Positions 1 to 36,988 of a stretch of 55,736 nucleotides of DNA are shown in pieces. Numbering within the stretch: the first letter of the stretch is position 1; each line of letters starts with the position of its first letter. The stretch is from Alphaproteobacteria bacterium (GTDB taxonomy: Bacteria; Pseudomonadota; Alphaproteobacteria; DSM-16000; Inquilinaceae): the NCBI GenBank assembly GCA_009909005.1, contig JAAAOG010000201.1, positions 1 through 55,736 on the forward strand, written 5' to 3'. A program made the translations under genes and the position numbers. The notes beneath the pieces are model-generated. The model was given only the letters and a program-made list of their open reading frames with translations. It searched no databases and was not told the DNA's origin.

Positions 1-186
1 CCGCTGCCCCCAGGCCTTCGCCCCCTGTTCGACCACTGTCCCGCCCCCGTCGACATCGGCCCGCCCGCTCCCACCACGTCCGCTGCCTCCTGCACGGCGG
101 CGCGCCGACCTCATGGTAGGCTGGCGGTAAGCGACCCGAACCCCGTCATGTCAAAGCCGATGGCGATTTGCTCAAGGTCATTTATT

Positions 187-1254: not shown

Positions 1255-1290
1255 GACGTGCGGTGGAATGCTGAGTTGCTGCCTCGGGTC

Positions 1291-1311
1291 CTCTCTCTGC
1301 CGTGGAGAGAG
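1291..1311. promoter_or_regulatory. Inverted repeat in the divergent control region
   Basis: CTCTCTC (1291-1297) and GAGAGAG (1305-1311) are perfect 7-base arms around a 7-base spacer. They lie between the divergent starts at 1254 and 1331. This could be an operator for both genes or an RNA hairpin just ahead of the 1331 ribosome-binding site. No protein family can be assigned. Confidence 0.35.
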
Positions 1312-1312
1312 A

Positions 1313-1328
1313 ATAAATAGGAATTATC
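1313..1328 (+). promoter_or_regulatory. Ribosome-binding leader shared with the ATP-grasp gene
   Basis: ATAAATAGGAATTATC ends two bases before the ATG at 1331. The identical 16 bases occur at 4104-4119 on the other strand, three bases before the ATP-grasp start. AGGA sits at ribosome-binding distance in both, which fixes both start codons. Confidence 0.6.
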
Positions 1329-1330
1329 GC

Positions 1331-2989: not shown

Positions 2990-3047
2990 ATATTTTAGTT
3001 TGTACAAACAAAACTCCTCTTCTCGGCCATCCCTTTACAATTGGACG

Positions 3048-4100
3048 CTAAGTTGCGATCTCTGAGGCATAGAGCATCAAACCAACTATTGCCGCTTCTT
3101 CTTTTAGAGATTGCAAAAGTTTTACAAGACAAGGATCCAATTCGTAATGTTCTTTACAGTTTAATGATAATAAGTGTTTCAACATATGACCGAAACCGCT
3201 TTCTCGGCTCACTGTTGGTGTAGGGTTTGCTTCAAGGAAAAATGAGTTATCAAGGGACATCTGTTCCGGTATTGATTTATTTCGTGAGTCTATACGAAAA
3301 TCTATTCTATAGATAGACGAATACCCGATTTTTTCACATAGAGCATAGATTTCACGCCGCAGAGCTGGGTCAACTGCAACATTTCGGCGCACAAAAGTCG
3401 GTTTTGTACTTTCAGATAGTTTTTCTTCTTCAGAAAAAGTCCAGGAAGCCCGTTCTGTCTCTTCTGGGATAAGGAGTTGCGCACCAATTACACTATATTG
3501 AAGATTAGGCTGCAATACAATAGCAACTGTTGCATCAAAACCTTCGATAAACTCTTGAACGATATCTTTTCCGAATGTGACGTCATGGAGTTCTTTGCCA
3601 CGAAGCAATTGAAGGCCGCGACTCATGCCTAAATCCCTTGGTTTTCTAACATAGATTGCGCCACCTCCATCAGATTTCCATGGTTTTGGTAACCTTAGTT
3701 TTGTCGTCGCTGCAAGCGCGTTAGCAAGATCCTTGCGCTCACCAACAATATGAACGTCTGACGCACATGGGGCGACAGGTATTCTTGCCCAGCTAGCGCC
3801 GGACGCAATTATTGGCCAGCTTGCTATCTGAAGTAAACCCGAATGTAAATTAAGTATATAGTCTCCCATCGTTTCGGGGGAATGTGCCATTTCCTTTAAA
3901 TAAAGGTCAACATCGATATAGCGTGGGCTAGCACCTAATTTTTCTATACCTGCCCCAAAAAAGAAGACGACATCAGATCGCCAACGGTCGTACCATGTTA
4001 ACTTGGGTTCGACGCGATTGCTAAAGCTGTAGACTACAGCAACGGTCTTCCCGTGTAACGAATCAAGGAAAGACGAGAAACCTTGAATCCAGTCAGCCAT
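3048..4100 (-). CDS. ATP-grasp family carboxylate-amine ligase-like protein
   Basis: The 350-residue protein has ATP-grasp landmarks: a basic, glycine-rich loop (KSDGGGAI, about 142-149), a VQEFIEGFD strand at 181-189 that resembles the adenine-binding hinge of D-Ala-D-Ala ligases, and acidic/Asn metal ligands D267, E290 and N292 in DFRID...FFLEANP. An extra loop separates the last two motifs. Such enzymes activate a carboxylate as acyl phosphate and join it to an amine or similar nucleophile. Neither substrate is predictable here, and it is not an obvious housekeeping Ddl. The start is fixed by a leader shared with the 1331 gene. Base composition is AT-rich, unlike the transporter operon next door, suggesting acquisition by transfer. 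Confidence 0.75.
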   Translation of the reverse strand: MADWIQGFSSFLDSLHGKTVAVVYSFSNRVEPKLTWYDRWRSDVVFFFGAGIEKLGASPRYIDVDLYLKEMAHSPETMGDYILNLHSGLLQIASWPIIASGASWARIPVAPCASDVHIVGERKDLANALAATTKLRLPKPWKSDGGGAIYVRKPRDLGMSRGLQLLRGKELHDVTFGKDIVQEFIEGFDATVAIVLQPNLQYSVIGAQLLIPEETERASWTFSEEEKLSESTKPTFVRRNVAVDPALRREIYALCEKIGYSSIYRIDFRIDSRNKSIPEQMSLDNSFFLEANPTPTVSRESGFGHMLKHLLSLNCKEHYELDPCLVKLLQSLKEEAAIVGLMLYASEIAT

Positions 4101-4246: not shown

Positions 4247-5065
4247 TCAAATCATCCGCTTGCGCAGTGTGGCGGAGATCCATTCGCTGGCGGCGACGAT
4301 GGCGAAGATGGCGATCAGGATTACCGTGACTTCGCGCCAGGCGAAGCTGTTCATGGCGGTGTTCAGGGTGATGCCGATGCCGCCGGCGCCGACCAGGCCG
4401 ATGATGGCCGACTGGCGGATGTTGATGTCCCAGCGGAAGGTCATGACGCCGACGATCACCGGCATGATCTGCGGCAGGATGCCGTAGATCAGCACCTTGG
4501 CCGGGCCGGCGCCGGTGGCGCGGATCGCCTCGACCTGGCCGGGTTCGATCTCCTCGATGCCCTCGGCCACCAGCTTCGCGGTGAAGCCGATCGAGGAGAC
4601 GGCGATCGCCACCATGCCGGCGGCCGGGCCGGGCCCGAAGACGACGGCGAAGATCAGCGCCCAGACCAGCTCGTTGACCGAGCGCGAGCCGACGACGATC
4701 ACCCGCGCCAGCCACAGGGTGGCCTTGTTGGGCGTCAGGTTCTGCGCCGCCAGCAGCGCCACCGGGATCGACAGCAGCCCGCCCACCAGCGTGCCGATGG
4801 TGGCGATGTTGATGGTCTCGATCATCGGGTCGACGATGTCGAGGAAGAACGGCCAGTCGGGCGGCACCATGCGGCCGGCGAGATCGCCGATCTGCTCCGG
4901 CGCGTCGAGGACGAAGGGCCAGTAGATGTCCATCGCCGTGGCGGCCCAGACGATCGCCATGACCCCGCCGAGATAGGCCGCGAACTGCCACATCCGCTGG
5001 CGCCGGGAATAGCGCTCCCAGACCCGCGGCGGCCGCCCGCCCGCCTCCTGCCGCGTGCCGGTCAT
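4247..5065 (-). CDS. phnE: Phosphonate/phosphite ABC transporter permease (second PhnE)
   Basis: Integral membrane permease of a PhnCDE-type importer. It shows several hydrophobic segments and the binding-protein-dependent permease EAA-type loop (GIEEIEPGQVEAIRATGAG), which contacts the PhnC ATPase. The start is the ATG at 5065, overlapping the TGA of the upstream permease as ATGA, which signals translational coupling; an in-frame start 11 codons earlier is less likely. This gives 272 residues, the usual PhnE size. It is the last gene of the operon, and the two PhnE paralogues probably form a heterodimeric channel. No C-P lyase or phosphonatase gene is present in the window, so the substrate could be phosphonate, phosphite or another phosphorus compound. 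Confidence 0.9.
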   Translation of the reverse strand: MTGTRQEAGGRPPRVWERYSRRQRMWQFAAYLGGVMAIVWAATAMDIYWPFVLDAPEQIGDLAGRMVPPDWPFFLDIVDPMIETINIATIGTLVGGLLSIPVALLAAQNLTPNKATLWLARVIVVGSRSVNELVWALIFAVVFGPGPAAGMVAIAVSSIGFTAKLVAEGIEEIEPGQVEAIRATGAGPAKVLIYGILPQIMPVIVGVMTFRWDINIRQSAIIGLVGAGGIGITLNTAMNSFAWREVTVILIAIFAIVAASEWISATLRKRMI

Positions 5066-5880
5066 GTGATGCGCGCCCGGGCGACGCCGCTCGCCCATTC
5101 CGCCACCAGCACCACGGCGATGATCGACAGCAGGATCGCCGCGCTGAAATCGTACTCATAGCGGGAGAAGGAATTGTAGAGCACCGCGCCGACGCCGCCG
5201 GCGCCGACAATGCCGAGGATGGTCGATTCGCGCAGATTGATGTCGAGCCGGTAGATGCACAGGCCGATGAAGCGCGGCATGACCTGGGGGAGAATGCCGA
5301 AGAGCAGCACATGCACCGGGCCGGCGCCGGTGGCGCGGACCGCCTCGACCTGGCCGGGGTCCATGGCCTCGATCTCCTCGGCCAGCAGCTTGCCGACAAA
5401 GCCGGTCGAGGCGATGAACAGGGTCAGCACCCCGGCAAAGGCGCCGAAGCCGAAGGCCTTGACGAAGAAAATGGCGATGAGGACTTCCGGAAAGGTGCGC
5501 GAGAGGCCGATATAGCCGCGCGACAGCCAGTAGACCGGGGCCGGGGCGACATTGGCGGCGGCGCCGAGGCCGATGGGGATGCTGACCACGGCGCCGGCCG
5601 CGGTGGCGACGATCGCCATCTGCAGGCTCTCCACCAGGCCGTCGAGCAGCAGCTCCCAGCGGGCGAAGTCCGGCGGCACCATCTGCCCCAGCATGTCGAA
5701 TGCCCTGGGAATGCCGCGGGCGATGCGCTCGAGATCGAACTCAAGGTCGCCGATGCCCCAGACCAGATAGGCAAGGACCGCCACGATCAGGCCCCAGCGC
5801 AGCGCCGGGTTGGGGATCAGCGGCGGCTTGCGCCAATGGCGCGGTCGGGCGGGCCGGGCCGCCCCGGCCTGGGCCGTCAC
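5062..5880 (-). CDS. phnE: Phosphonate/phosphite ABC transporter permease (first PhnE)
   Basis: A 272-residue multi-spanning permease. Its EAA loop ([19 protein letters not shown]) is nearly the same as that of the following gene, showing the two are paralogues. The cytoplasmic N-terminus is basic and proline-rich, followed by the first membrane segment near residues 29-46. Translation starts at a GTG at 5880 that overlaps the TGA of the ATPase gene (GTGA). The gene order ATPase-permease-permease after a binding protein is the classic phn/ptx transporter layout. It works in the inner membrane with the ATPase and the periplasmic binding protein encoded upstream. Confidence 0.9.
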
Positions 5881-6686
5881 GAGGCCGCCTCCCGCCGCGC
5901 CGACCCCGCCCCGGCCTCCGGCTCCTCGCGGCGCAGGGTCTGGCGCCAGTCGGCGGCGCCGTAGATGCGGGTGAGCACCGCCTCGTCGACGGCCGCCGGC
6001 GGACCGTCGAACACGACATGGCCGCGGGCCAGCCCGACGACCCGCTCGGCGAACATCAGGGCCAGCCCGACATCGTGGATATTGATCAGCGCCGGCAGGC
6101 CGCGCTCGCGCGCCAGGCCGCAGATCAGCTCGAAAATGGTGCGGGCGGTCTTGGGATCGAGCGCCGAGGTCGGCTCGTCGACCAGCAGGATCTTCGGCTC
6201 CTGCATCAGGGCGCGGGCGATGCCGACCCGCTGGCGCTGGCCGCCGGAGAGCTGGTCGGCGCGGCTGTTCTCGAACCCCTCCAGCCCGACCCGGTCGAGC
6301 AGGGCGAAGGCGGCGTCGATATCGTGCGGCGGAAAGCGGCGGAAGGCCGCCTGCAGGATGGAGACATAGCCGAGCCGGCCGGACAGGACGTTCTCCATCA
6401 CCGTCAGCCGCTCGACCAGATTGAACTCCTGGAAGATCATCGCGATTTCGCGGCGGGCCCGGCGCAGCTGCCGGTGGCTCATCGCCGTCAGGTCGCCGCC
6501 GTCCAGCACCACCCGCCCGGCCGTCGGTTCGACCAGGCGGTTGATGCAGCGGATCAGGGTGGACTTGCCGGCGCCGGAGGGGCCGATGATCGCCACCACC
6601 TCGGCCCGGGCGAACTCCAGGCTGCAGGAGTCGAGGGCGGCAATGCCGCCCTCATAGGTCTTGCTCAGGCCCTCCAGGCGCAGCAT
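5877..6686 (-). CDS. phnC: Phosphonate/phosphite ABC transporter ATP-binding protein PhnC
   Basis: The 269-residue ATPase has Walker [10 protein letters not shown], the ABC signature [15 protein letters not shown], Walker [13 protein letters not shown] and a switch histidine in the NIHDVGLA segment. [20 protein letters not shown] is typical of PhnC. It hydrolyses ATP on the cytoplasmic face to drive uptake through the two permeases. It sits 15 bases after the binding-protein gene and overlaps the first permease by four bases. An unusual C-terminal tail of about 20 residues is rich in Glu, Ala and Arg and is probably unstructured. Confidence 0.93.
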
Positions 6687-6701
6687 CGGGTCAGACCCGG
6701 C

Positions 6702-7703
6702 TCACTCGGACAGGCCTTCCTGGGTGTATTCGACGTCGTTCTGGTTCTGGATGGTGCGGATCGTAGCCCAGTTCTCGCGATAGCTGATGGGGATGAAGCG
6801 GTCGGCGTCGCTGAATTCCTCGCCGACGGTGGTGCCTTCGAAGTCGAAGGTGAAAAAGGCCTTCTGGATCAGCAGCTGCAGCACCGGATCGAGATTGTGG
6901 GCCATGCCGAAGGCGGTGGTCGGGAAGGGCTGGCTCTCATAGACGACGCGCAGATCGGCGCGGTCGACGACGCCGCGGTCGGCCATGCGGTCGAGCACGC
7001 TGGAGGCGATCGGCGCGGCGACATAGTCCTGGTTGGCGACGCCGAGGATCGACTGGTCATGGCCGCCGGAATAGACGACTTCGTAGTCTTCGTCCGGCAC
7101 CACGCCCAGGGAGGCGAGCAGCGCCCGCGGCGCCTGGTTGCCGGAGTTGGAGGCCGGCTCGGTGTGGGCGACGGTCTCGCCCGCCAGGTCCTCGATCGAC
7201 TGGATGTCGGTGTCGACGTGGGTGATGACCTGCATGCGATAGCCGTACTGGCCGTCCTCGGTCCCCATGATGGTGAAGGGGTTGAAGCCGGCGATGTTGA
7301 CGCCGAAGGGGGTCGAGCCGGTGGACAGGCCGGCGACGTGCAGGCGGCCGCTGCGCAGCGCCTCGATCTGGGCGGCATAGGACTGGGCCGAGAAGTACCG
7401 CACCTCCTTGCCGGTCACCTCTTCGAGATGGGCGACGAAGGGGGCGAAGACGTCCACATAGATCGCCGGATCCTCGACCGGAACATAGGAGAAGAACAGC
7501 GTGTCGGGATCGGTCCACTCGCCGCGGTCCATCGGCAGGTCGGCGACAAGGTCGCGGTTCTCGTCGCAATAGCGCTCGGCAAGATCGCCGCGATGGCTGC
7601 AGCTCATCTCCTGGGCGGGTGCGGCACCGGCCGCCAGCATGGTGCCGGCGGCAATCCCGGCGGCGAGCACGGTGCGCACCGTGGTGATGGGGTGGAGCGT
7701 CAT
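6702..7703 (-). CDS. phnD: Periplasmic phosphonate/phosphite-binding protein PhnD
   Basis: The start is the ATG at 7703, preceded by GAGAGGA seven bases upstream; upstream in-frame starts would put 39 unlikely residues before a signal peptide. The 333-residue product has a cleavable signal (hydrophobic core about residues 10-25, AAPAQE at the cleavage region) and then a type II periplasmic binding fold with PhnD-like features such as YFSAQSYAAQIEALRSGRL and SNSGNQAPRALLASLGV. It captures the phosphorus substrate and delivers it to the permeases. Two early cysteines (CSHRGD and YCDEN) in the mature N-terminus could form a disulphide. It is the first gene of the operon. Confidence 0.9.
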   Translation of the reverse strand: MTLHPITTVRTVLAAGIAAGTMLAAGAAPAQEMSCSHRGDLAERYCDENRDLVADLPMDRGEWTDPDTLFFSYVPVEDPAIYVDVFAPFVAHLEEVTGKEVRYFSAQSYAAQIEALRSGRLHVAGLSTGSTPFGVNIAGFNPFTIMGTEDGQYGYRMQVITHVDTDIQSIEDLAGETVAHTEPASNSGNQAPRALLASLGVVPDEDYEVVYSGGHDQSILGVANQDYVAAPIASSVLDRMADRGVVDRADLRVVYESQPFPTTAFGMAHNLDPVLQLLIQKAFFTFDFEGTTVGEEFSDADRFIPISYRENWATIRTIQNQNDVEYTQEGLSE

Positions 7704-7835
7704 GGGGTTCCTCTCCGCGTTTTCGATCGGGTCAGTCTTCGATCGGGTCAAACGAACGCGTGACAGGAACCCGGCGGGTCCCTGCCGACGCCGCTCCCCT
7801 GGGTAAACGCACTTCTTCAAACCTTCGTGTCAGAC

Positions 7836-14473: not shown

Positions 14474-16273
14474 CTAACGGAGCATTACGAACATGCGGAT
14501 TAGTCCTTCCTCGTCAGGGCTTTCGGCGGAAAATCCGTGGATGGCTTTCCCAATCACTGCACCCAAAGTACGCTCCGGGTCCGACGCACGCATAGCGACG
14601 CCAGGCACGCTTGAGGCCACCAGCAAGTCCCCGGCCTCGATTGCTCCGCCTTCCGAGTTGACACGAACATTCACCTGGCCAGCGATCGCCAGCTCACGAT
14701 CTCCCGTACCATCACCACGGGATCCCAGACTTATGCCGCCGGTTACGTCGCCAGCACCGGCTATAACCCCAACGACCATCGGATCATAAGGTTGGGCCGA
14801 CAATCCCAGGCTTCCATCTTCGGGCATCAAACCGACCACAGAGCCCGGACGGATTTCTTCGTCAGGGGTAAGGCTAGTCTCTGTCACCAGGGTAATGGTT
14901 CTCCTTGAAGATCCCAGGATTTCGAGAAAGCCATGACCGGTGGAGTTCGTCCCCATTGACGCGACTTCAACACCATCTGCATTAAAGAATTCTGCAATAC
15001 CTCCCCCAGATGTGTTTTCGGCTGCAATTATAGACAACTGGTCCCCGGAAGCATTTTCAAGCTGAAAAAACCCGTGGCCAGTACTTGAGGTTCCTATAGC
15101 CGCAACTCGCGATTGGCCCGAAAAATACTCTGTAAGACCGCCCCCTGATGTGCTTTCCGTAACCATTCTTCCAATTAGATTTCCTTCGCTGTCATACAGT
15201 GATAAATGCCCATTTCCTGTATTATCTGTTCCAAAAACACCAACCCGGCCGTTTTGAGAGAAAAATTCTGCAAGCCCCCCGTGCGACTCTCTTTCGAAAG
15301 AAATTCTGGTTCCCAAAAGGCCGTTACTATTAAAAAGGTCAAGGCTGCCATTATTATCTATAAATGACCCTATTCTTGCTACCCGCACCGCATCAGAGTT
15401 GAAAAAGCGAGCAAGCCCTCCGCCATCACTCCGCTCGTGAACTGAGAATACTTGTTGTCCAGTCAGGCTATCCATTCGCAGAAAAGGAAGATCGGAACTT
15501 GAGACTCCAAGCTCTAATTGCTCTTGCCCGTCAAAATTAAAAAAAGTCAAGCCGCCATTGCTTGTGTTTCTGTCAATAGTAATTTGTACAACCGTTTCTC
15601 CTAGGGAATTGGAGATACCAAAGTACCCTCCAGTATTCTGGGAACCCATTATCGACCCCCAGCCGCTATCTTCCCCGCCTTCGTTAAGAACAGAGATTGA
15701 ATCTTCTTCGAACACTATCCGTTCAAGATGTTCGATCATGGTCGGACCCGGGCGCCCGCGCGCTCCTTGCTCTCCCTGAGGTCCCCTTAATTCATCAATA
15801 TATTCAGAAACAAGGATGGTTGCGACCGATTGAGGCAGATTATGATCCCGCACAATCGAACGTGCAATTTCCTGCAAACCCGCCTCCACAGTTCTCACCA
15901 CCTCTGTCTGCGCAACCTCAACTGCGTGCTCGAGTATTTCGTCAGCATGCCTTTCAAGAGTTTCTTCCAATTCTGAAGCAGTCCTCAAAGACAAATTTTC
16001 AATTTCTTGATCGATATGGTCAGAATTCGCTTCCCTCATCTGTTCGAGGCTGTCAGCATTCGCCTGAATAGCTTGGTCAAGCCTATCTTCAATATATCTT
16101 TCCTGCTGCGAAAAATAATTCACAATTACTATTATCCCCGCGGTGATTGTAACTACCAGGGCTATTGCATTGATCACAGAAAGCGACATCCAGCGACTAC
16201 TGGGTTTTTCGTTTTTAACCTCTGATTCTGTCTCGCCGGACATAGCCGAGGAATTCGAATTGTTATCTTCCAT
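14474..16273 (-). CDS. Membrane-anchored coiled-coil, collagen-like, 46-residue-repeat protein
   Basis: The 599-residue protein has an acidic cytoplasmic N-terminus, one membrane segment (about 30-53), a long coiled coil (about 57-140), five collagen-type Gly-X-Y triplets (164-178) and then five tandem repeats of about 46 residues, marked by a Gly-Gly pair near 240, 285, 332, 378 and 424. Typical repeat landmarks are GGGLxEFF and GTxxTGHG. The final 130 residues form a compact Gly-rich domain with IAGQVNVRV and GDLLVASSVPG, like C-terminal domains on trimeric fibre-like proteins. The topology predicts a trimeric stalk projecting from the inner membrane into the periplasm. Function is unknown. 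The lower GC content than flanking genes suggests transfer. Confidence 0.7.
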   Translation of the reverse strand: MEDNNSNSSAMSGETESEVKNEKPSSRWMSLSVINAIALVVTITAGIIVIVNYFSQQERYIEDRLDQAIQANADSLEQMREANSDHIDQEIENLSLRTASELEETLERHADEILEHAVEVAQTEVVRTVEAGLQEIARSIVRDHNLPQSVATILVSEYIDELRGPQGEQGARGRPGPTMIEHLERIVFEEDSISVLNEGGEDSGWGSIMGSQNTGGYFGISNSLGETVVQITIDRNTSNGGLTFFNFDGQEQLELGVSSSDLPFLRMDSLTGQQVFSVHERSDGGGLARFFNSDAVRVARIGSFIDNNGSLDLFNSNGLLGTRISFERESHGGLAEFFSQNGRVGVFGTDNTGNGHLSLYDSEGNLIGRMVTESTSGGGLTEYFSGQSRVAAIGTSSTGHGFFQLENASGDQLSIIAAENTSGGGIAEFFNADGVEVASMGTNSTGHGFLEILGSSRRTITLVTETSLTPDEEIRPGSVVGLMPEDGSLGLSAQPYDPMVVGVIAGAGDVTGGISLGSRGDGTGDRELAIAGQVNVRVNSEGGAIEAGDLLVASSVPGVAMRASDPERTLGAVIGKAIHGFSAESPDEEGLIRMFVMLR

Positions 16274-19752: not shown

Positions 19753-22700
19753 TCAGGAGGAAAACTGTTTCTGCGTAAAGCCCAGGGCCTGGGCGTTGTC
19801 GCCGACCACGTCGGCCACATCCTTGGAGAAGCCGCCCGGGCATTCGGCCTGGATTTCCAGGACGATCCGGAAGGACGTGCCGTCGTCGCGGTCCAATTCG
19901 GCGATGATGCTTTCGAAGACCTGCGAGACTTTCATCGCGCCGCGTATGGTGTCGAGCTCGACGACGCCGTTGAAGCGGCGGGGCCGGCTTTCGATGGGTT
20001 CACCCGGACCCGGCGGCTCGGATGAGGAATCGGCAGCGGCCGGTCCGGGCCCGGCATCGGCCCCGGCCCCGGTGCCGGGAGATCCCGGGCCGGAACTTGC
20101 CGTGCCGCCGTCCGCGGGGGCCAGCTGGCGGTCGGCGACGCTGCGGACCACGAGAAGCATGCCTTCCCCGAAGCGCACCGGCACCGACCGGGCCGCCTGC
20201 AGGCCCTCATAGCGGCCGTCCGCCTTGCCGGCGGCCAGGGCGAACCTCGCCCCCTGGGCATCGAGATCGGCGACCGCCTCGGAGATCGTCCGGGCCAGCA
20301 CCGTTTCGTCGCGCAGCCGCGCCATATGCAGGAACTTGAAGTACCAGTCGCGCACCAGGTCGACCGGCAGATCGTCCCGGCCGTCCGGCCACAGCTCCAT
20401 CAGCCGGCTGGTGAAGGCCTGCTTGCCGAGCACCGGGGCGACGGCGCCGGCTTCCTTCGCCTTGTCCCAGGCGGCCTCGGCCGGGCTGCGTTGTCCGCTC
20501 GGCCGCATGCCGACCGTGTCGAGGGCCACCTTGCTGGCATCCGCCGATGACTGGATGGGAATCAGCAGGTGGTTCCAGGACTTTCGCACAAGCTCCCTGG
20601 CGACCGTTTCGGCCTGGGCCCGGCGGGTCTCGGCATCATGCTTCTGGCTCTCTTTCAGGTCGAGGCTTCGGTCGTCGACAATGTCCTGCCAGGCCAGCAG
20701 GCGCTTGACGGCGCGGCGGGCATCGTCGCGGCCGCGGGTGTCGCTGGCGAGGAAGATCAGGGCATTGCGGAAATCGCGCTGGCCGCCGGCCCGCCGGTCG
20801 ATGCCGTCCAACGCCTCGATCTCGGCGCTTGAGCCGCCGCCGCCGCCGCCGGCATGGACGAAGCGGGGGCCCAGCAGCACCAGGCGCGCGGAGGGCTCGT
20901 CCGCCACATCGGCGGCCCGGTCCGGCGCGGTGTGGACCCGCGTCCATTCGCCCCTCTGCCGTTCGTCGGCCCTGAGAAAGGCGACGATCCGGTCGTTGGC
21001 CCGGTCGTCGTCGATATCGGCCTGCCGGTTCTCGGCCAGCCGGTTGAGCGTCGGCGTCGGCCCGTACCAGTAGCGCCCGCCGGCGGTGTAGAGATGCGCC
21101 GAGCCCTCGGCCAGCTGGCGCAGCGCGTCGCCGAAAACGGAGATCTGCTCGCCCGGCCTGACGCAGGCCAGCCGCAGTTCCGGTCCGGTCAGGCCGCCGC
21201 GGGCATCGCCGGCCGGGGCCGTGCTGACGAAGACGGCCCGGGCCGCCCGCCGGCAGATCTGGTCGGCGCGATAACGCTGATAGCCCGCTTCCATCCGGGC
21301 CGGCAGCGACAGATCGCCGTCGACCTCGCTTTCGATGATCGACCCCCAGGCGGGGCTGCTCAGCGGCTCCAGCAGCCCGCCGCGCACCGCCGGATCGTTG
21401 ATCCTGAGCGAGCTCGGCAGGATCAGCGGCTCGGTGCTGCCGTCGCGATAGCTGGCAAAGATCGTGCGCGCCAACAGCGCCAGAACCCCGCGGGTGCGCT
21501 GAAAGCGCTCCAGCGCCCCCCATTCCCCGGACAGCTTGTCGAACAGCATGGGATGGACGGGATAGGCTTCCAGCATCCGGTCGGCATAGTCGCGCTCGCC
21601 GGTGCCGGCCGGGAAATCCGCCTTGTGCTGGCGGTAATACTGCCGGAAGGCGTCGATGGTGCGCTTGCGCTCGGTCTCGCCGCGGGCATCCAGCTCCTGG
21701 AACAGCCGGCGGCGTACCACCGAATAGGTCTCCGCCCCCTGGGCCGGCTGCCAGGCCGATTGCGTCCGGCCGAACAGCTTTTCCAGGATGCGCAGAGCCT
21801 CCCGACCGCGTTCGCCGCCCACCTCGATATCGCTTTCCGGCAGCGAGCCGACGATCAGCGCCCGCGGCACCCGCGCCGCCGCCTCGGTCAGGCTCTGCAG
21901 AAAGGACAGATGCGCGTTGAACCGTTCGCCCGACAGCTGGCGGATGAAGGCGACCAGTTCGTCCAGCAGGATCAGCGCCGGCCGGTCGCCGAGGCCGAGG
22001 ACCTTCTGAAACACCTCGCCGCCCGGGCTGGTGCCGGCGGTCTCCGAGGCTTCGACCAGCCCCAGCCCGTCGCGCCCGGCCAGCCGCCAGGCGAGATAGC
22101 CCCACAGCGTGCGCACCGGCCGGCCTTCGGCCACCGCCAAAGGCTGGTCCGGCCCCTTGTCGCTGCCGCTGAAGACGGCGATCGCGATGTCTCCCAGGCG
22201 GGACTGCCCGACCACGTCCTCGATCGGCGCCAGCGCCTCGACGGTGCCGAGATCGCCCAGCCGCGCCATGTGGTAGAGCGACAGCAGGGTGTGGGTCTTG
22301 CCGCCGCCGAAATTGGTCTGCAGGCCGATGGTCGACGGCCCGCCATCGCCGATCAGGCGCCGGGCCGCATTCTCCAGGGTCAGTGCCAGGCCGGCCGTGA
22401 GATAGGTGGTGCTGAAGAATTCCAGCGGGTCGGCATAGGGGTCGACGGCGCCGTCCTGCGGCGTCTCCGCCGCGCGATCGACCGACGCGAGGTTGGCGGC
22501 GAAGGTGTCCTTGTCGAGCCGGCCGGTCAGCACGTCCTCGCGCGGCGGGCAGACGATGCGCCAGGGCTTCAGGCCCGTGACCTCGCCGCCCTCGAAAAAG
22601 CTCTCCTGCCGGGCCGGCGCCGCCGCAGGGACCGCCGTCTCGCCCGCCTTTTGCGCGGAGTCGGGCCTGGGGCCGGAAAGCGTCAGGGTCGGCCGCCGGG

Positions 22701-23205
22701 CCGCAGCCTCCTCGCCCGGGGCGGCCGGGGCGGCCTGTGCGGCCGGCGGAGCTTCGGCCGGCGCCGCCGGTTTCGGCGCCGCGGCGCGGGCCATCTCGGC
22801 GATCAGGGCGTCGAGCAGCTGCCTGGCTTCGGCCACCTCCTCCTTCGCGCCCATGGCCTTCAGCAGCTCGACCCCGCCGGACAGGGCGCGCAGCGTGGTG
22901 TGCTCGTCGAGCGGGCCGGAGGAATGCGCCAGCTTGTTGCGGCCGGTCAGCGCCGCGGAGGCGGCGTCGCGCATCTCCATTTTCAAGATGTTCTCGAAGA
23001 TATCCCGCCAGTTATGGATGATGATGTAGAGGACCGCATAGGCGTCGAGATCGCGCATCGGGGTCAGCGATCGCGGCACCCGCACCTCGTCGCGCCAATC
23101 GGTGCCGAAGCGCTTTTTGAGGGTTTCGTGCAGAAACGTCTTGCCGACCCGGTCGATCAGGCCGAGCAGCCCGTCCATGCGCTCGCGATTGGTCGCCATA
23201 GCCAC
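19753..23205 (-). CDS. HEPN (Swt1-like)-DUF499 ATPase, probable anti-phage component
   Basis: The 1150-residue protein has an N-terminal helical domain (about 1-125) ending in RNKLAH (R89-x4-H94), which fits the HEPN ribonuclease motif and resembles Swt1-type HEPN domains (DAYAVLYIIIHNWRDIF). A low-complexity Ala/Pro linker (about 141-200) leads into the DUF499 region with WRIVCPPREDVLTG, a P-loop NFGGGKTHT (298-306) and a Walker B-like LILLDELVAFIRQL. The C-terminal part has another Gly/Pro-rich linker before a terminal beta-rich domain. It is the last of three co-directional genes with the DUF1156 methyltransferase and the helicase. DUF499 proteins are recurrent in predicted phage-defence loci. 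Whether the HEPN domain cuts RNA here is inference. Confidence 0.85.
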   Translation of the reverse strand: MAMATNRERMDGLLGLIDRVGKTFLHETLKKRFGTDWRDEVRVPRSLTPMRDLDAYAVLYIIIHNWRDIFENILKMEMRDAASAALTGRNKLAHSSGPLDEHTTLRALSGGVELLKAMGAKEEVAEARQLLDALIAEMARAAAPKPAAPAEAPPAAQAAPAAPGEEAAARRPTLTLSGPRPDSAQKAGETAVPAAAPARQESFFEGGEVTGLKPWRIVCPPREDVLTGRLDKDTFAANLASVDRAAETPQDGAVDPYADPLEFFSTTYLTAGLALTLENAARRLIGDGGPSTIGLQTNFGGGKTHTLLSLYHMARLGDLGTVEALAPIEDVVGQSRLGDIAIAVFSGSDKGPDQPLAVAEGRPVRTLWGYLAWRLAGRDGLGLVEASETAGTSPGGEVFQKVLGLGDRPALILLDELVAFIRQLSGERFNAHLSFLQSLTEAAARVPRALIVGSLPESDIEVGGERGREALRILEKLFGRTQSAWQPAQGAETYSVVRRRLFQELDARGETERKRTIDAFRQYYRQHKADFPAGTGERDYADRMLEAYPVHPMLFDKLSGEWGALERFQRTRGVLALLARTIFASYRDGSTEPLILPSSLRINDPAVRGGLLEPLSSPAWGSIIESEVDGDLSLPARMEAGYQRYRADQICRRAARAVFVSTAPAGDARGGLTGPELRLACVRPGEQISVFGDALRQLAEGSAHLYTAGGRYWYGPTPTLNRLAENRQADIDDDRANDRIVAFLRADERQRGEWTRVHTAPDRAADVADEPSARLVLLGPRFVHAGGGGGGSSAEIEALDGIDRRAGGQRDFRNALIFLASDTRGRDDARRAVKRLLAWQDIVDDRSLDLKESQKHDAETRRAQAETVARELVRKSWNHLLIPIQSSADASKVALDTVGMRPSGQRSPAEAAWDKAKEAGAVAPVLGKQAFTSRLMELWPDGRDDLPVDLVRDWYFKFLHMARLRDETVLARTISEAVADLDAQGARFALAAGKADGRYEGLQAARSVPVRFGEGMLLVVRSVADRQLAPADGGTASSGPGSPGTGAGADAGPGPAAADSSSEPPGPGEPIESRPRRFNGVVELDTIRGAMKVSQVFESIIAELDRDDGTSFRIVLEIQAECPGGFSKDVADVVGDNAQALGFTQKQFSS

Positions 23206-23382
23206 GCCCTGACGGAAAAAGGGAAGCCGTATGCCGCTTGTCCTCTTTTAGCAGTCCGGCGCCGCGACCGGAAGAGAGGAGGCGCGCCCGCCCTTCTTCC
23301 CTGCCGGCAGGTCCGGCCCTTGTGCTTTTGCCCACACGCCGTGACGGCGCCTCGCAGGGGTCCGAGGGCGCGCCGAGGACGC

Positions 23383-26307
23383 CTAAAGCAAAGCGGTCTG
23401 GGCGGGGGTGGGGTCGGGGGTGGTGCGGGCGCGGTCGGCGGCGCGTTCGATTTCCGGCCAGGCGGTCTGCAGCTGGTTCCAGACCAGCGCCTCCTCCGCC
23501 TCGCCGCGGGCCGTGGCCATGTCGAACAGGCGTTCGGCCAGCAGCAGCACGTCCGGGCCGGCCAGCGCCTTCTCCGCCAGCAGGGCGCCGGCGGCATCGA
23601 TGCCCCCGTCCGGGGCGAGGAAGACCCGGGCCAGGTGCTGGGCCATCTCCCAGATGGTGAAGGTTTCGTCGCGGCCCGGCCGCCAGCCGGGGTCGGCGGC
23701 CTGCATTTCCGCGCGGCTCAGCAATTTGGCCTCGCCGCCGCGGGCGCGGAACAGGCCGGAGCGGTTCATCCGCGCCTCCGACAGGTTGAAGCCGAGCAGC
23801 ATGCCGATGGCGCTGCCGGCGCCGCCCTTGACGGATTTCATGCCGTGCAGCGCATACCAGTCGAGGGCGAAGCGGGTCTCGGCGTCCAGCGCCTCCGTCC
23901 CCTCGCTCAAGACCGCGTCGATTTCCTTGTTGATGATGGCGAGCGCCTCGGCCACCGACATTTCGCGGTCGTCGATGGCGCGCACCGCGGCATATTTCGA
24001 GAAGACGCCGATGCCGGGCCCGATCGCCGCCTGACGCCGGTCGGGCAGCGGCACGCCGGCCTTCTGATGCGCCTCGATGGCGGCCTTCATCACCGGCTTC
24101 AACTCGCGCAGAAAAGCCTGGCGCGTGGCCACCGGCGCCTCGTCCGGCCGCCTCCGGCACACCAGCACGACGGACGACGCGAGCGCGTTGGCGCCGGAGG
24201 CGATCATCCGGTTCGACAGCTCGGTGCGCAGCGGCCAGGTGCCGTCGACCTGCAGGCCCGACTGCACGATCGCCTGCAGAAAGGCCGCCCAGCCGGGCGA
24301 CAGCACGCCGTCCTCCTGCGCTTCTGCCTGCTTGAAAGCGTAATAGACGGCGAGCGGCGCATCGGCCGACGCCTCGCGCATCGCCATCAGCGCGCCGCTG
24401 ATTCCGTCCATGAAATGCTTCTCGGCCGCCTCCACCCCGCCATGGCGATACGGTGTCGCGACAAGCTCCTCCGCTTTCGGCGTCAACAGCCGCCGGAACA
24501 AATCCGGATGAATGTCCTTCAGACAGCGTCGCAGCCAGACATAAAAGAAATCGGCTAAATCCGAATACCCGATATTATCGTAATATGGAGGGTCTGTTGA
24601 AATTGTCGTTGCCTTCGTTGGATAATTATTTTTTGGCGCATCGATAAATACTGAAGAACCGAAACAGCGCAGGGAGGGAATAGATTCGATGCTTTCTGCT
24701 GTCCAAGTCACGGCGCCTGAAAAACTACCTGTTCCTGTCAACAACGTATTCAGTTCTGCAAAATCCCATGACATCGGGATAGACTGGCGAGCAAACGTAG
24801 GACGCGTCGAATCTCGTTCTGTAAACCATGTACATATTGATGAGCCGCGATCGGCCATTTTGGAAATAGCAAATGCTATATATGTTACAATTGAATCGGC
24901 ATATGCGGCCGGTCCTGTGCCATCGCTGGCTAAAGGCCGGTCCGGACTGGCATGGTGGAGAAAGCACTGTGCCTTCCGAGCGTCAACCCGGACTTTTTCG
25001 CGCGCTTCGCTGACCAAATCCGAGAATGTCGTCAATGCCGTCAGCTGCCGCGGGGTGAAAAGATCAATCCAACGTGACAAACCATAATCTACCGTCCAAA
25101 AATTCCGAGGATCGTCCGGCAGGCCTTGCTCCAGCTCCGGTGCGGCAGGCGGGGGAACACGCGCCGCAGCGGCATGCCCTGCCGTTGGCGCCAGGTACAT
25201 GCGTTTGCGCGTGCCCTCGGCGACGACGGCCATCAGCCGGGCCCCGATGCGGCCGGCCTTGCCTTCTGCCTTGATGTGGCGGGCGGCGATGGCATTGCCG
25301 CTGAGCACGCAGATGAAGTTCGAGCCGCGCGCCGTCTTGGTCCCTTTTTTGGCTTCGGTCAATTCGGCGGGGGTGATGTCGCCGGTCTTGATGGTGAAGC
25401 GCCAGCCGTCCGGGGCGTCCGGGTCCTTGACCGGGACGACGATCGTCTCCCGGCCTTTTTTCGAGGAGAGGACGAAGGAGGAGGCGAGGGGGACATGGGC
25501 GCCTTTCTGCGCCGGGTCGGGGGAGGCGACGGTGCGCGCCCACAGCCAGGCGATCACCGTGGCCTCGCTGCCGTCGGGCAGGACCGCCTTGGGATAGAGA
25601 TGGCCGATGCGCTTTTCCGCCTCGTCCCGCATCCAGCGGCCGTAGCGGCGGACGTCTTCGGCCAGGCCCTCGGCCCCCTGCCAGGTGCGGCCGGCGAGGT
25701 CCTTGTCCCGGGCGACGTCGGGATGGACGGGCGGCAGGCCGGCGAATTTCGGCGGGAATTCGATCAGCGCCTTGGTGATCAGCACCGCCACGGGGTTGAG
25801 GTCGGAGCCATAGGCGCGCAGGCCGAGGCGCTGCGCCTCCAGCGGGATGGAGCCGCCGCCGCAGAACGGGTCGTAGACCGGCGGCCCCGCCTTCTGGAGA
25901 TAGGCGAGGACGGCCTGCGGGTCGGAGGCCGGGGGCGGCTCCTCGTCCCGGTTCCAGGCGACCGAGCGGGCGATCTCCCACCGTGCGGCGGCGATGGCGT
26001 CGGCGAAGCGCCGGCGGTCGGCACGGTCGGATTTCGGCCATTCGACCATCTCTTCGATGATCTTGTGCAGGCGGCGGCGCTCGCGCGCCTGGTCGTCCTC
26101 GCCGGGAAAGCGCGCCGGCCAGGCGGAGGGGTCGTCGACCAGCTGGGCGAAGAGCACGGCGCGGCAGGCGGCCAAAGGCCGGCGCGCCCACCACAGATGC
26201 AGGGTGGACGGGTGGCCGTGGCGGATCGACTTCTCCCGGGCCGAGGCGGCATTGATCGCCTCCAGCGGCAGGGAATGCTCGATCAGCTTCATCCGCCCCG
26301 GCCGCAT
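23383..26307 (-). CDS. DUF1156 adenine-type DNA methyltransferase, probable anti-phage component
   Basis: The start is ATG 26307, behind GGAGGATGCC; the frame is open further upstream but runs into an intergenic repeat. The 974-residue protein begins with the DUF1156 pattern (IEHSLPLEAINAASAREKSI, STLHLWWARRPLAACRA), has the SAM-binding motif DPFCGGGSIPLEA (from 146), and the catalytic DPPYYDN at 572-578 typical of N6-adenine or N4-cytosine methyltransferases. It probably marks host DNA as self. A segment of about 585 bases (24530-25115), including DPPY, is visibly AT-rich compared with the rest of the gene. The gene lies between the helicase and the HEPN-DUF499 gene, all on one strand. Confidence 0.88.
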   Translation of the reverse strand: MRPGRMKLIEHSLPLEAINAASAREKSIRHGHPSTLHLWWARRPLAACRAVLFAQLVDDPSAWPARFPGEDDQARERRRLHKIIEEMVEWPKSDRADRRRFADAIAAARWEIARSVAWNRDEEPPPASDPQAVLAYLQKAGPPVYDPFCGGGSIPLEAQRLGLRAYGSDLNPVAVLITKALIEFPPKFAGLPPVHPDVARDKDLAGRTWQGAEGLAEDVRRYGRWMRDEAEKRIGHLYPKAVLPDGSEATVIAWLWARTVASPDPAQKGAHVPLASSFVLSSKKGRETIVVPVKDPDAPDGWRFTIKTGDITPAELTEAKKGTKTARGSNFICVLSGNAIAARHIKAEGKAGRIGARLMAVVAEGTRKRMYLAPTAGHAAAARVPPPAAPELEQGLPDDPRNFWTVDYGLSRWIDLFTPRQLTALTTFSDLVSEAREKVRVDARKAQCFLHHASPDRPLASDGTGPAAYADSIVTYIAFAISKMADRGSSICTWFTERDSTRPTFARQSIPMSWDFAELNTLLTGTGSFSGAVTWTAESIESIPSLRCFGSSVFIDAPKNNYPTKATTISTDPPYYDNIGYSDLADFFYVWLRRCLKDIHPDLFRRLLTPKAEELVATPYRHGGVEAAEKHFMDGISGALMAMREASADAPLAVYYAFKQAEAQEDGVLSPGWAAFLQAIVQSGLQVDGTWPLRTELSNRMIASGANALASSVVLVCRRRPDEAPVATRQAFLRELKPVMKAAIEAHQKAGVPLPDRRQAAIGPGIGVFSKYAAVRAIDDREMSVAEALAIINKEIDAVLSEGTEALDAETRFALDWYALHGMKSVKGGAGSAIGMLLGFNLSEARMNRSGLFRARGGEAKLLSRAEMQAADPGWRPGRDETFTIWEMAQHLARVFLAPDGGIDAAGALLAEKALAGPDVLLLAERLFDMATARGEAEEALVWNQLQTAWPEIERAADRARTTPDPTPAQTALL
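24530..25115 (-). other. AT-rich patch inside the DUF1156 methyltransferase gene
   Basis: This part of the gene, covering roughly residues 398-592, is far richer in A+T and in codons such as AAT, TAT and ATA than the flanking coding sequence, which has the usual high GC at third positions. The reading frame is intact across both borders. It suggests recombination that swapped the catalytic/target-recognition part of the enzyme. Confidence 0.6.
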
Positions 26308-26462
26308 GGCATCCTCCGGGTCCTTGCCGTGCCTGTCTCTGCCGGTCGTGAATGCACGGACCCTGCGGCCGTTGCAAGCCCGACTCGGCACGCGGCAGCC
26401 TTGCCGCCCTTCTTGCGTTTGTCTTTCCCGGCCATTCCTGCTCTCGCCTACGCGCCCAACGG

Positions 26463-26530
26463 TCATCCCCGCGAAAGCGGGGATCCAGAAGACCGGCCGC
26501 TGACAGGAGATTCCCGCTTCCGCGGGACTG
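26463..26530. repeat. Pair of oppositely oriented REP-like palindromes
   Basis: CCCCGC-GAAA-GCGGGG (26467-26482) and CCCGC-TTCC-GCGGG (26513-26526) lie in inverted orientation about 30 bases apart. The first, with flanking GTCAT and ATCCAG, belongs to a dispersed intergenic repeat common in proteobacteria. The 323-base space between the helicase stop and the methyltransferase start holds these hairpins and no gene. They may stabilise or attenuate the operon transcript. Confidence 0.7.
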
Positions 26531-26630
26531 ACCGGAATGGGTTCAACGGCGTGACTCGGCCTCAAAGCCGGGAGCGACAGATCTGTGCATGTTCTCCCGG
26601 CAAGCGGGGAGGCCCGGAGTCGCGCGGGCG

Positions 26631-29600
26631 CTATGGCGAAAACGGGGCCGGGGTGGCCAGCGCGCGGATGGTGGCGACGGAAAAATGCCGGCAGGTGTCC
26701 ATGAAGGTCCCCTCGTTCCAGAGATGCCGGCCGGGATCGGGCAGGTAGAGCGGCTGGCCGGCGAAGCCGTTGTCGATCGGCACGAAGACCAGGCAATAGC
26801 GATCGGCCTTGTTGAGGGCCCGCAGCATCTCGTTCTTGGTGACGATGATGTCGCGGCCGGCGGTGACCCGGCCCTTCACCTCCAGGAACAGCAGGCTGCC
26901 GTCCGGCGCGGCGCTTTCGATGTCCCAGCCTTCGTTGCGGGCCGAGACATCGCGCGGCCGGCGCCCGGCCGCCCGCTCGGCCGCCATGACGGCGTCCATG
27001 GCCAGCCTCTCGGTCTCGCCGGTGTCCTCGGCCAGGCCGTCGGGGGTTGCGTCAACGCCGGTCAACCGCGCCAGCAGTCCGGCGGGGACGATCAGCGCGC
27101 CGCCATGGACGGCCGGCGCGGCGGCGGCGATATCGCGCTCGCGGGCCAGCTCCGCCAGGCGCAGTTCCAGCCGGTCGGCCAGCCGGGCGGCGCGGTCTTC
27201 CGCGGTCTGCAGGGCGAGCCGTTCGTCCTTGCCGGCCCGGACATTCAGCCGATGCCGGTCGGCCCGGCGGCTCCAATAGGCGATCTCCTTTTTCAGACGG
27301 ACCCGGACGGCATCCTCGACCTTGCGGATGTGAGCGAGCCGGCGGTCACGCACCTCCTCCAGATGGCGCATGGCCAGATGCCCGGCCGCAAAGGCGCGGG
27401 CGCGGGCGAGGAGATCGCCCTGCAGCCAGCCGGCCCCGGCCAAGGTCCGGCACGCCGCGTCCTCTGCCGCGGTCGGCGGGCGCAGGTCGAGATAGGGCGC
27501 GCTGCCGGCATCGGCGGCACGGCCGTCGGCGGCGAGGCGAATGAACTGCAGGCGGCGGGAGATGGTGCGCGGCGCACCGTCGGGGGCCATGACGCCGTCG
27601 CGGATCTCGTGTTCGGCCATGACCAGCAGCTGAGGCGTCTCGCCGGGGTCATCCTCCGCCACCAGGATCGTTCCCTGACGCAGCGCCGCCCCCCAATACT
27701 CGCCGACCAGGTCGATCACCGCCTCCAGCAGCGGGTGGCCCGGAGCGATCAGCGCCGCATCGGGGGTGCCGGCCGGGCTGCGGGTATCGGCCTTGTCGAA
27801 GCAGATGCGGGCATAGCGTTCCAGCACCGGATCGCCGCGGCCGGCCAGGTGGTCGCGGCTGCGGATCAGCGCCGGCACGCGCAGGATCTCCCAGCGCCCT
27901 GGCTCGCGCATTTCCATGACGCCGCCCAGCCGGCCGAAGGCCTCGGCGAAGAACTGGCGAATGAAATGCGGCTGCAGCCGGCGGGCCCGGGCCCGCTCCA
28001 TCTCGTGCCGGAGTTCCGTCACCTGATCCGGTCCCAGGCTTTCCTGCACCAGGCGGGCGCGGGCGGTCAGGGCGTCGAGCCGGGCCCGGTCGACGGCGCC
28101 GTCGACGCTGTGGAAAAGGCGGGCGCGCACATCCGGCCGTTCGCCATAGCGGACCGCCTCCATCAAGAGGTCGCTGAGGCTGCGGTCCTCGAACGCTTCG
28201 CCCAGCACATCGTAGACCTTGCCGCCCAGGGCGGTCCGTGCCTCCTCCAGCTTTTCCAGCAGCCGCTGGTAGACCGCACCCTCGCGGGTCTCGCCGGCGA
28301 CCAGGTTCCAGAGATGGCAGGTGACGGTCTGGCCGATGCGGTGGATACGGCCGAAGCGCTGTTCCAGCCGGTTGGGGTTCCAGGGCAGGTCGTAATTGAC
28401 CATGAGATGGGCGCCGCGCTGCAGGTTGACGCCCTCTCCGGCGGCGTCATTGGCGATCAGCACCCTGAGCACCGGGTCATTGTTGAAGGCGGCGACGATC
28501 GTTCGACGCTGCTGGCGCGGCACGCCGCCATGGATCAGGGCGACCGCCCTGGGATCGCCGAGCCGGGCTGTCGTTTTTTCGGCCAGATAGGTCAGCGTGT
28601 CGCGCGGCTCGGTGAAAATCACGATCTTGCGCTGGTGGCCGCCCTCGGGGTCGCGGACCGGCGGCCGGTCGAGAATGGCGGCAAGCTGGGTCCATTTTGC
28701 GTCGGTGCCGGCGCGGCAGAGGGCATAGGCCTTGTCCTCCAGCACCTGCAGGCTGGCAATCTCCGTCCGAAGCTCGGCCAGGGTGCGCGCGGTCGAGGCG
28801 CCGTCGATGGCGGCGTCCTCCAGCGCTTCGCGTTCCTCGTCCGGCAGCTCGGCCAGATCCTCCTCGTCCGGCAGCGCCAGGCCGTCACCGGAGAGGGTTT
28901 CCGCGCGCGCCCGCAGCGCCTCTTCCTCCAGGCGCTTTTGCAATCGCTCGCGGCGGCGTTTGAGCGAGGTCCAGATGGCGCGCGGCGAGGAGGCGAGGCG
29001 GCGCTGCAGCGACTGCAAGGCGAAGCCGACGGCGGTGCGCCGGTTCTTTTCGCCGGCAGCGAAACGCTCGGCCCGGTTCATCTCCTCGCGCACATAGTCG
29101 GTGACCGCGGCGTAGAGGTCCGCTTCGGGCGGCGACAGCGGATAGGTGACGGTGTAGGCACGGCGTTCCGGGAACAGCGGCCGGCCGTCGAACCAGTAGA
29201 GCTCCTCCTTGACCATTCGGCGCATCAGGTCGGCCGGGTTGGCGGTGCGCACGCCGTCCCGCCAGGCCCCCTCGAACCGGTCGGTATCGAGGAGGGACAG
29301 GAAGAGCTGGAAGTCGTCGTCCTTGCCATTGTGCGGGGTGGCGGTCATCAGCAACAGGTTGCGCGCCCGCTGACCCAGCAGACGGCCGAACAGGAAGCGC
29401 CTTGTGTATTTCACCTCGCCGCCGCGATAGCTGGCGGACAGGCGGTGCGCCTCGTCGCAGATGACCAGGTCGTAGTCCGGCGCCGCCTTGATCAGCGCCT
29501 CCATCTCCGGCGAGCGGGCGCCCATGTCGAGCCGCAGGATCAGGCGGTCGGCATCGGCGAAGGGATTGCCGCCATGGATGCTGCGCATCGCCTCGCGGCT

Positions 29601-30158
29601 GACGAGGCGGAAGTCGAGGCCGAATTTCTCCTGCAGCTCGTCCTGCCATTGCTCGACCAGCGATCCCGGCGCGACGATCAGGCAGCGCCTGAGGTCGCCG
29701 CGAATGATCAGCTCCTTGATCAGCAGGCCGGCCATGATGGTCTTGCCGGCACCCGGGTCGTCGGCAAGCAGAAAGCGCAAAGGCTGGCGGCCCAGCATGT
29801 CGCCATAGACCGCCGTGATCTGGTGCGGCAGCGGCTCGATGTCGGAGCTGGTGAGCGCGAGATAGGGGTCGAAAAGGTGGGCGAGGGCGATGCGGCGGGC
29901 CTCGGCGGCCAACCGGAAATCGGCGCCGTCTGCCGTGAAGGAAAAGGGCGGAGCCGGTGCGGCGGCGTGCAGGCGGGGCTCGTCCTGTCGATCAAGAATG
30001 CGCTGGTCGAGGCCCTTGACACTGCGATACGTGACTTCGAGCCGGTCGCTGCCCAGCCAGACGACGGCGATCACTTCGGCGGGGCCGGCCGGGGTCAGGC
30101 CGGAGACGGTGACGCCTCTGTCGATCGACTCCAAAGCGAGCACTGCGGCACCTGCCAT
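26631..30158 (-). CDS. SNF2-family helicase with C-terminal DUF3883 domain, probable anti-phage component
   Basis: The 1175-residue protein has an SNF2-type superfamily 2 motor: DPGAGKT (134-140), ICDEAHRLSAS, MTATPHNG, and the C-terminal helicase motif QRFGRIHRIGQ. Arg/Ala-rich helical segments lie between and after the two motor lobes. Near the C-terminus, GWDIES and FLEVKGR match DUF3883, a domain with a PD-(D/E)xK nuclease-like core often found on defence helicases. This motor resembles the DISARM helicase DrmD, but drmA, drmB and drmC are absent. It probably translocates on invading DNA. It is the first of the three co-directional genes, starting 171 bases after the tRNA-Pro 3' end. Confidence 0.88.
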   Translation of the reverse strand: MAGAAVLALESIDRGVTVSGLTPAGPAEVIAVVWLGSDRLEVTYRSVKGLDQRILDRQDEPRLHAAAPAPPFSFTADGADFRLAAEARRIALAHLFDPYLALTSSDIEPLPHQITAVYGDMLGRQPLRFLLADDPGAGKTIMAGLLIKELIIRGDLRRCLIVAPGSLVEQWQDELQEKFGLDFRLVSREAMRSIHGGNPFADADRLILRLDMGARSPEMEALIKAAPDYDLVICDEAHRLSASYRGGEVKYTRRFLFGRLLGQRARNLLLMTATPHNGKDDDFQLFLSLLDTDRFEGAWRDGVRTANPADLMRRMVKEELYWFDGRPLFPERRAYTVTYPLSPPEADLYAAVTDYVREEMNRAERFAAGEKNRRTAVGFALQSLQRRLASSPRAIWTSLKRRRERLQKRLEEEALRARAETLSGDGLALPDEEDLAELPDEEREALEDAAIDGASTARTLAELRTEIASLQVLEDKAYALCRAGTDAKWTQLAAILDRPPVRDPEGGHQRKIVIFTEPRDTLTYLAEKTTARLGDPRAVALIHGGVPRQQRRTIVAAFNNDPVLRVLIANDAAGEGVNLQRGAHLMVNYDLPWNPNRLEQRFGRIHRIGQTVTCHLWNLVAGETREGAVYQRLLEKLEEARTALGGKVYDVLGEAFEDRSLSDLLMEAVRYGERPDVRARLFHSVDGAVDRARLDALTARARLVQESLGPDQVTELRHEMERARARRLQPHFIRQFFAEAFGRLGGVMEMREPGRWEILRVPALIRSRDHLAGRGDPVLERYARICFDKADTRSPAGTPDAALIAPGHPLLEAVIDLVGEYWGAALRQGTILVAEDDPGETPQLLVMAEHEIRDGVMAPDGAPRTISRRLQFIRLAADGRAADAGSAPYLDLRPPTAAEDAACRTLAGAGWLQGDLLARARAFAAGHLAMRHLEEVRDRRLAHIRKVEDAVRVRLKKEIAYWSRRADRHRLNVRAGKDERLALQTAEDRAARLADRLELRLAELARERDIAAAAPAVHGGALIVPAGLLARLTGVDATPDGLAEDTGETERLAMDAVMAAERAAGRRPRDVSARNEGWDIESAAPDGSLLFLEVKGRVTAGRDIIVTKNEMLRALNKADRYCLVFVPIDNGFAGQPLYLPDPGRHLWNEGTFMDTCRHFSVATIRALATPAPFSP

Positions 30159-30329: not shown

Positions 30330-30406
30330 TGGTCGGAGTGGCAGGATTCGAACCTGCGGCCCCTGCCTCCCGAAGACAGTGCTCTACCAGGCTGAGCTAC
30401 ACTCCG
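30330..30406 (-). tRNA. tRNA-Pro (anticodon CGG)
   Basis: The 77-base gene folds as a full cloverleaf with CGGAGTG/CACTCCG acceptor arms, the D-arm AGCTCAGCCTGGTAGAGC, an anticodon arm CTGTC-TTCGGGA-GGCAG giving anticodon CGG, and T-arm GGTTCGAATCC. The terminal CCA is encoded. It reads proline codon CCG. Its 3' end points at the helicase of the putative defence locus, the usual geometry for island insertion at tRNA genes, although no direct repeat or integrase was found. Confidence 0.95.
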
Positions 30407-30481: not shown

Positions 30482-32815
<2,334 letters not shown>

Positions 32816-36691: not shown

Positions 36692-36988
36692 ATGCTGTCG
36701 AGAGACGAGATCATCCGACGCCTGCGCCGCCATCAGCCGGAACTGCGCGCGGCCGGCATCGTCCATCTCGCCCTGTTCGGCTCGGCAGCGCGGGGCGACC
36801 CCATGGCCCGGGACATCGATCCGGCGGCACGATTCGACCCGGCAAGGGTGCGCTCGCTTCTTGATCATGCCCGGGCCTGGGATGTGGTCGCCCACATCCT
36901 CGACCACGAGGTCGACCTGATCGACCTCGATTCGACACGCCCGGATTTCCGCCGCACCATCGACAACGAGCGGGTCGATGCCTTCTGA
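36692..36988 (+). CDS. Orphan MNT-type minimal nucleotidyltransferase
   Basis: The 98-residue protein has the minimal nucleotidyltransferase core: LFGSAARGDPMARDID matches GSxxRG...DxD with the two metal-binding aspartates, and HEVDLIDLD supplies a third acidic strand. In MntA/HepT modules such proteins modify a HEPN toxin, but no HEPN gene follows here. It lies 17 bases after carA on the same strand and may be transcribed with it. GC content is normal for the region. Confidence 0.8.
   Translation: MLSRDEIIRRLRRHQPELRAAGIVHLALFGSAARGDPMARDIDPAARFDPARVRSLLDHARAWDVVAHILDHEVDLIDLDSTRPDFRRTIDNERVDAF

Follow-up and report, generated by a model that had tools for sequence, protein, structure and literature searches.

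A complete, intact-looking Hma (helicase-methylase-ATPase) system, classed as Type-1 BREX-related and expected to act as an RM-like defence, is very probably encoded by the three genes located at positions 19753-30158 of the analysed window, i.e. the whole stretch of 55,736 nucleotides. The domains, the motifs, the conservation of the gene order and the family membership were observed directly for these three genes, and from the family and the literature we infer a function of this copy in anti-phage defence.

The fusion of a HEPN (Swt1) domain to DUF499 in an operon with SNF2-DUF3883 and restriction-modification components was described in 2013 (PMC3710099). Payne et al. 2021 introduced the name Hma for a putative three-gene system present in 26 phyla (PMC8565338), and Rakesh and Krishnan 2026 redefined Hma as the Type-1 BREX-related (BR) system, which they report from 2446 taxa, the HEPN fusion being present in 1370 of these (PMC12839542). 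As the system type is already named, profiled and widespread, the trio carries little weight as a discovery. The window contributes an intact Hma copy that bears the HEPN domain and has no embedded genes, and the same genome also harbours a DISARM-type DrmD/DrmMI pair. The mechanism of Hma has so far been thinly tested, and the compact copy described here could serve as an experimental model.

Organization of the operon and its three proteins

The three large genes on a single strand that a preliminary description of this DNA had listed were recovered as open reading frames at 19753-23205, 23383-26796 and 26631-30158 of the reverse strand, all of them with a GC3 bias of the coding type. On this strand they are transcribed in the order SNF2 helicase, methyltransferase, ATPase, with intergenic gaps of 323 nt (hmaA-hmaB) and 177 nt (hmaB-hmaC). 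All three frames are intact, as are the catalytic motifs read in each of the translations. A search against defence-system profiles, as the preliminary description had proposed, returned PADLOC HmaA, HmaB and HmaC as top matches at near full length (1439.7, 1028.7 and 701.9 bits, respectively), which bears out its assignment of the trio to defence. Rival PADLOC profiles scored much lower on the same proteins (DrmD 363 bits, DUF499 87 bits). The domain composition given in that description, a HEPN-DUF499 ATPase, a DUF1156 methyltransferase with DPFCGGG and DPPY motifs and an SNF2 protein with a DUF3883 tail, agrees with the Pfam matches and motifs reported below.

The gene hmaA (26631-30158, reverse strand, 1175 aa) was assigned by Pfam, the PADLOC HmaA profile, aligned over residues 7-1142, and conserved motifs. 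Pfam matches above the gathering score were obtained for SNF2-rel_dom, Helicase_C and NOV_C (62.4 bits; DUF3883-type). The protein is a RapA-like Swi2/Snf2 enzyme with a helicase core at about residues 100-650 and a C-terminal NOV_C/DUF3883 PD-(D/E)XK nuclease domain at 1050-1127, and it contains the motifs DDPGAGKT, DEAH, QRFGRIHRIGQ and D1079...E1093-V-K1095; in an alignment with 25 relatives the Walker A motif, DEAH, motif VI and D...EVK were invariant. The structural model of HmaA (mean pLDDT 71.2, pTM 0.56) was weaker than that of HmaC. Its top whole-chain fold match was RapA (E 1.6e-25), as would be expected of a RapA-type Swi2/Snf2 protein, and its C-terminus was REase-like. A small all-beta domain at residues 17-56 of the model is compatible with the N-terminal Tudor fold of Type-1 helicases and gave no specific match.

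The reading frame of hmaB opening at 26796 is over-long, and the true start was placed at ATG 26307 on the basis of the homology of relatives and a GGAGGA Shine-Dalgarno sequence. The gene thus extends over 23383-26307 (reverse strand, about 974 aa) and was identified by Pfam (DUF1156, 109.8 bits, above the gathering score) and the PADLOC HmaB profile. Its motifs DPFCGGG (motif I) and DPPYYDN (motif IV) were conserved in the comparison with 22 relatives, in which the start position was compared as well. HmaB is predicted to be a DNA methyltransferase, most likely of the N6-adenine type, contrary to the PADLOC authors, who labelled it an m5C enzyme (PMC8565338).

The hmaA-hmaB spacer (26308-26630, reverse strand, 323 nt) holds no gene of its own. 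It contains a single copy of a palindromic repeat that is dispersed in the genome and has its core at 26462-26487, which reads 'FWIPAFAGM' when translated through and so gives the spurious N-terminal extension of HmaB. In the whole genome 27 copies of this repeat were counted at up to 2 mismatches, in comparison to 0 for the reversed-pattern control, and on contig C82 the copies form tandem-like groups. The possibility that the spacer hides a gene was considered and rejected, the sequence being this repeat.

The gene hmaC (19753-23205, reverse strand), starting at GTG 23205 or at ATG 23199, was identified by Pfam, the PADLOC HmaC profile and its structural model. It encodes a HEPN_Swt1 domain (residues 22-119, 45.7 bits) with the motif RNKLAH, fused to a DUF499 AAA+ ATPase (residues 212-1149, 72 bits) with the motifs FGGGKTH and LLDE; both Pfam scores are above gathering. 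The PADLOC HmaC profile does not span the N-terminal HEPN region. Among 43 aligned HmaC proteins, HEPN_Swt1 is present in 33, including the one of the window, and RNxxxH occurs in all 33 proteins with the N-terminal extension, while in the other 10 the N-terminus is no more than about 30 residues away from the ATPase part. The HEPN domain is therefore common but optional, and judged by these sequences the HEPN-fused HmaC is the commoner form.

Sequence searches of solved structures with HmaB and with HmaC gave no match. For the model of HmaC (mean pLDDT 84.6), structures of BrxC of BREX were the sole PDB matches at E 0.001 or better (best E 1.2e-5), followed by ORC-type AAA+ proteins, and this fold match provides independent support for the published view of these systems as BREX relatives. 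A beta-alpha-beta-alpha-beta arrangement at residues 1077-1149 of the model resembles an incomplete four-strand version of the C-terminal RRM fold of Type-1 DUF499 proteins, with no specific match.

Relatives and putative mode of action

In a scan of species genomes, 80 relatives of the helicase were found in many phyla at 49-73% identity. A methyltransferase gene lies within reach in 73 of these 80, and all three genes are held by 56. The preliminary description had suggested comparing the neighbourhoods of homologues, where genes not found together would speak against a system; the helicase-methyltransferase-ATPase order and the strand were identical in 56/56 relatives holding the complete trio. 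The key catalytic residues of the three proteins are invariant or class-conserved among the relatives. Embedded genes are a known habit of Hma loci. The gap between helicase and methylase genes amounts to at least 350 nt in 40 of the 56 relatives, an approximate figure due to mechanically set ORF starts; such gaps are often long enough for embedded genes, and many relatives seem to carry an extra gene. The Hma copy of the window contains none.

With respect to the mode of action, Rakesh and Krishnan 2026 proposed that the system works in an RM-like manner and that HEPN is the effector of last resort. They also reported an active-type PD-(D/E)XK nuclease at the C-terminus of the helicase in 79% of the published Type-1 taxa, and according to them the helicase-nuclease HmaA of Halomonas was shown by Liu et al. 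2024 to defend against phage (PMC12839542). This extra C-terminal domain is present in HmaA of the window. From the protein families and this literature we infer, for the copy at hand, the methylation of self DNA and its target, the cutting of non-self DNA, the formation of a complex and the role of HEPN. HmaB would methylate the host DNA, most likely at N6-adenine, within a motif that its target-recognition region specifies. HmaC, as a BrxC/ORC-like AAA+ ATPase, would assemble with the Swi2/Snf2 motor of HmaA and license it on unmethylated incoming DNA, which would then be cut by the C-terminal PD-(D/E)XK (NOV_C/DUF3883) domain of HmaA. The N-terminal HEPN domain of HmaC, with its intact RNxxxH, may act as a back-up RNase for infections escaping restriction. 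A two-tier version, in which the HEPN RNase is restrained by the ATPase and fires only upon failure of restriction by HmaA, leading to abortive infection, is put forward tentatively, as a possibility with less than an even chance. The two-tier idea has been proposed in the literature already, where it has the status of a hypothesis, and the intact, insert-free copy of the window would offer a clean test case for it. The effector roles of HEPN and DUF3883 suggested in the preliminary description are likewise a hypothesis already published.

The system might instead act mainly by abortive infection, with the HEPN RNase as main effector and the methylase and the helicase merely sensing or regulating. 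The intact RNxxxH within HEPN_Swt1 of 33/43 proteins is what would be expected of an active RNase, but about one quarter of the relatives dispense with HEPN and yet hold all other parts, and NOV_C is present in nearly all helicase relatives, with D...EVK invariant in the 25 aligned. A near-universal NOV_C with this invariant motif next to an optional HEPN suggests that the DNA nuclease is the core effector, and abortive infection as the main activity is considered unlikely. Still less probable is a non-functional remnant or a housekeeping operon for DNA repair or epigenetic functions without any role in defence. The repeat element within the hmaA-hmaB spacer could be taken as a sign of it, but all three frames are unbroken and their catalytic residues conserved, the distribution is patchy, and the system type is classed as defence in PADLOC and as antiphage in the literature.

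The patchiness was observed in related genomes. Helicase searches gave matches in 10 of 143, some of them to weaker, more distant helicases, and within the same family one of the 16 other genomes was matched. The HmaC profile gave matches in 7 of the 143; an occurrence of this kind appears similar to that of horizontally moved defence genes. In genome G081 (locus L011) a full-length HmaA relative (54%) was seen; the HmaC profile had no match in this genome at E 1e-30, and the HmaA is possibly divergent or solitary.

Comparison with DISARM and other BREX-related systems

With Hma/Type-1 BR the window shares the three proteins, their order and strand, the domain architecture and the profile matches. 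Nothing essential differs; the window merely lacks an embedded gene and carries the dispersed repeat in the hmaA-hmaB spacer. The minimal variant that the preliminary description had held possible thus turns out to be the canonical composition of Hma/Type-1 BR (PMC8565338, PMC12839542), with a HEPN fusion known since 2013 (PMC3710099). Its remark that the operon is devoid of DISARM drmABC, DUF3780 and PLD holds.

The ATPase, methylase and helicase are homologous to BrxC, BrxXI and BrxHII of Type-3 BREX (PMC12839542), and the model of HmaC is closest to BrxC structures. Unlike Type-3 BREX, the operon of the window contains neither PglZ nor other Brx genes, and PglZ had no match across the genome assembly (230 contigs, 96% completeness) in a search with a positive control.

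The motor had been called DrmD-like, which is correct only at the level of the superfamily. A minimal or degenerate DISARM(-like) locus, in which a DrmD-like helicase and a methylase are kept and HEPN and DUF3883 replace DrmABC, would draw on the 363 bits of the window helicase against the PADLOC DrmD profile and on its 382 bits against NCBIfam DISARM_DrmD. The latter value is below the cut-off of 610, and the HmaA profile reaches 1440 bits on the same protein. A genuine DrmD is available for contrast on contig C205 of the same genome (G000), where the DrmD-DrmMI pair (L129:7441-15997), separate from the operon of the window, is followed by an XRE/ImmA-like regulator gene with weak RmrA matches. 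This helicase scores in reverse (DrmD 982 bits, HmaA 208 bits) and adjoins a DrmMI of 1257 bits. The PADLOC profiles therefore cleanly separate the DrmD and HmaA helicase types and place the window with Hma. HmaB gave no match to the PADLOC DrmM profiles, none of the operon genes is best matched by Drm profiles, and drmA, drmB and drmC are absent, so that the likeness to DISARM is limited to the superfamily of the SNF2 helicase. DISARM membership was rejected due to the profile scores, the reverse pattern on contig C205 and the lack of a best Drm match, and its probability is negligible.

The same negligible standing is given to a member of Type-2 BR (the DUF3780/PLD branch, NCBIfam NF042962-NF042964) after loss of DUF3780 and of the PLD domain: the DUF499 ATPase and the DUF1156 methylase are common to both and give weak NCBIfam matches, but the anti-phage models reached only 113 of the 1200 bits required for DUF499, 131 of 1000 for DUF1156 and 161 of 1100 for the helicase, HmaA has the N-terminal beta domain and the C-terminal REase typical of Type 1, with a DUF3883 nuclease instead of PLD, and gaps of 323 and 177 nt are too short for a DUF3780 gene. 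On account of the scores far below the cut-offs Type-2 membership was rejected, and the 'anti-phage-associated' labels of DUF499 and DUF1156 mentioned in the preliminary description belong to that other branch. A genome search for DUF3780 gave no match, with a control that was itself silent; within the operon the gaps are too small for such a gene.

Genomic surroundings of the locus

A tRNA-Pro(CGG) gene (30330-30406, reverse strand) lies just upstream of the operon, between rpoD (30482-32815) and hmaA, and is a possible island boundary. No second copy of its 3' end was found elsewhere in the window, and no clean empty site for an Hma insertion in relatives of the same family. In these relatives the DNA after rpoD differs, without this tRNA-Pro where the contig allows a look, and the region is thus variable. 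Genes of a phosphonate-type ABC transporter (4247-7820, reverse strand; also at L128 and L126) are about 22 kb away from rpoD here and directly follow rpoD in the relative G006; due to this different placement the region downstream of rpoD is regarded as rearranged within the family.

Concerning other defence genes adjoining the Hma locus, only weak matches to the PADLOC PDC-S09 nucleotidyltransferase were found, for a small minimal-nucleotidyltransferase-like gene (Polbeta/NTP_transf_2) at 36692-36988 on the forward strand. At 14474-16273 (reverse strand), in a dip to 51% GC, a protein of 599 aa without a Pfam match is encoded. It combines a coiled region with a collagen-like GPQGEQGARGRPGP segment and repeats, and resembles a surface protein. 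The beginning of the window (1-4100), with ORFs at 1253-2989 and 3048-4100 that gave no Pfam or PADLOC match, has a GC content of about 45% within a window of 65-70% GC and was possibly acquired recently.
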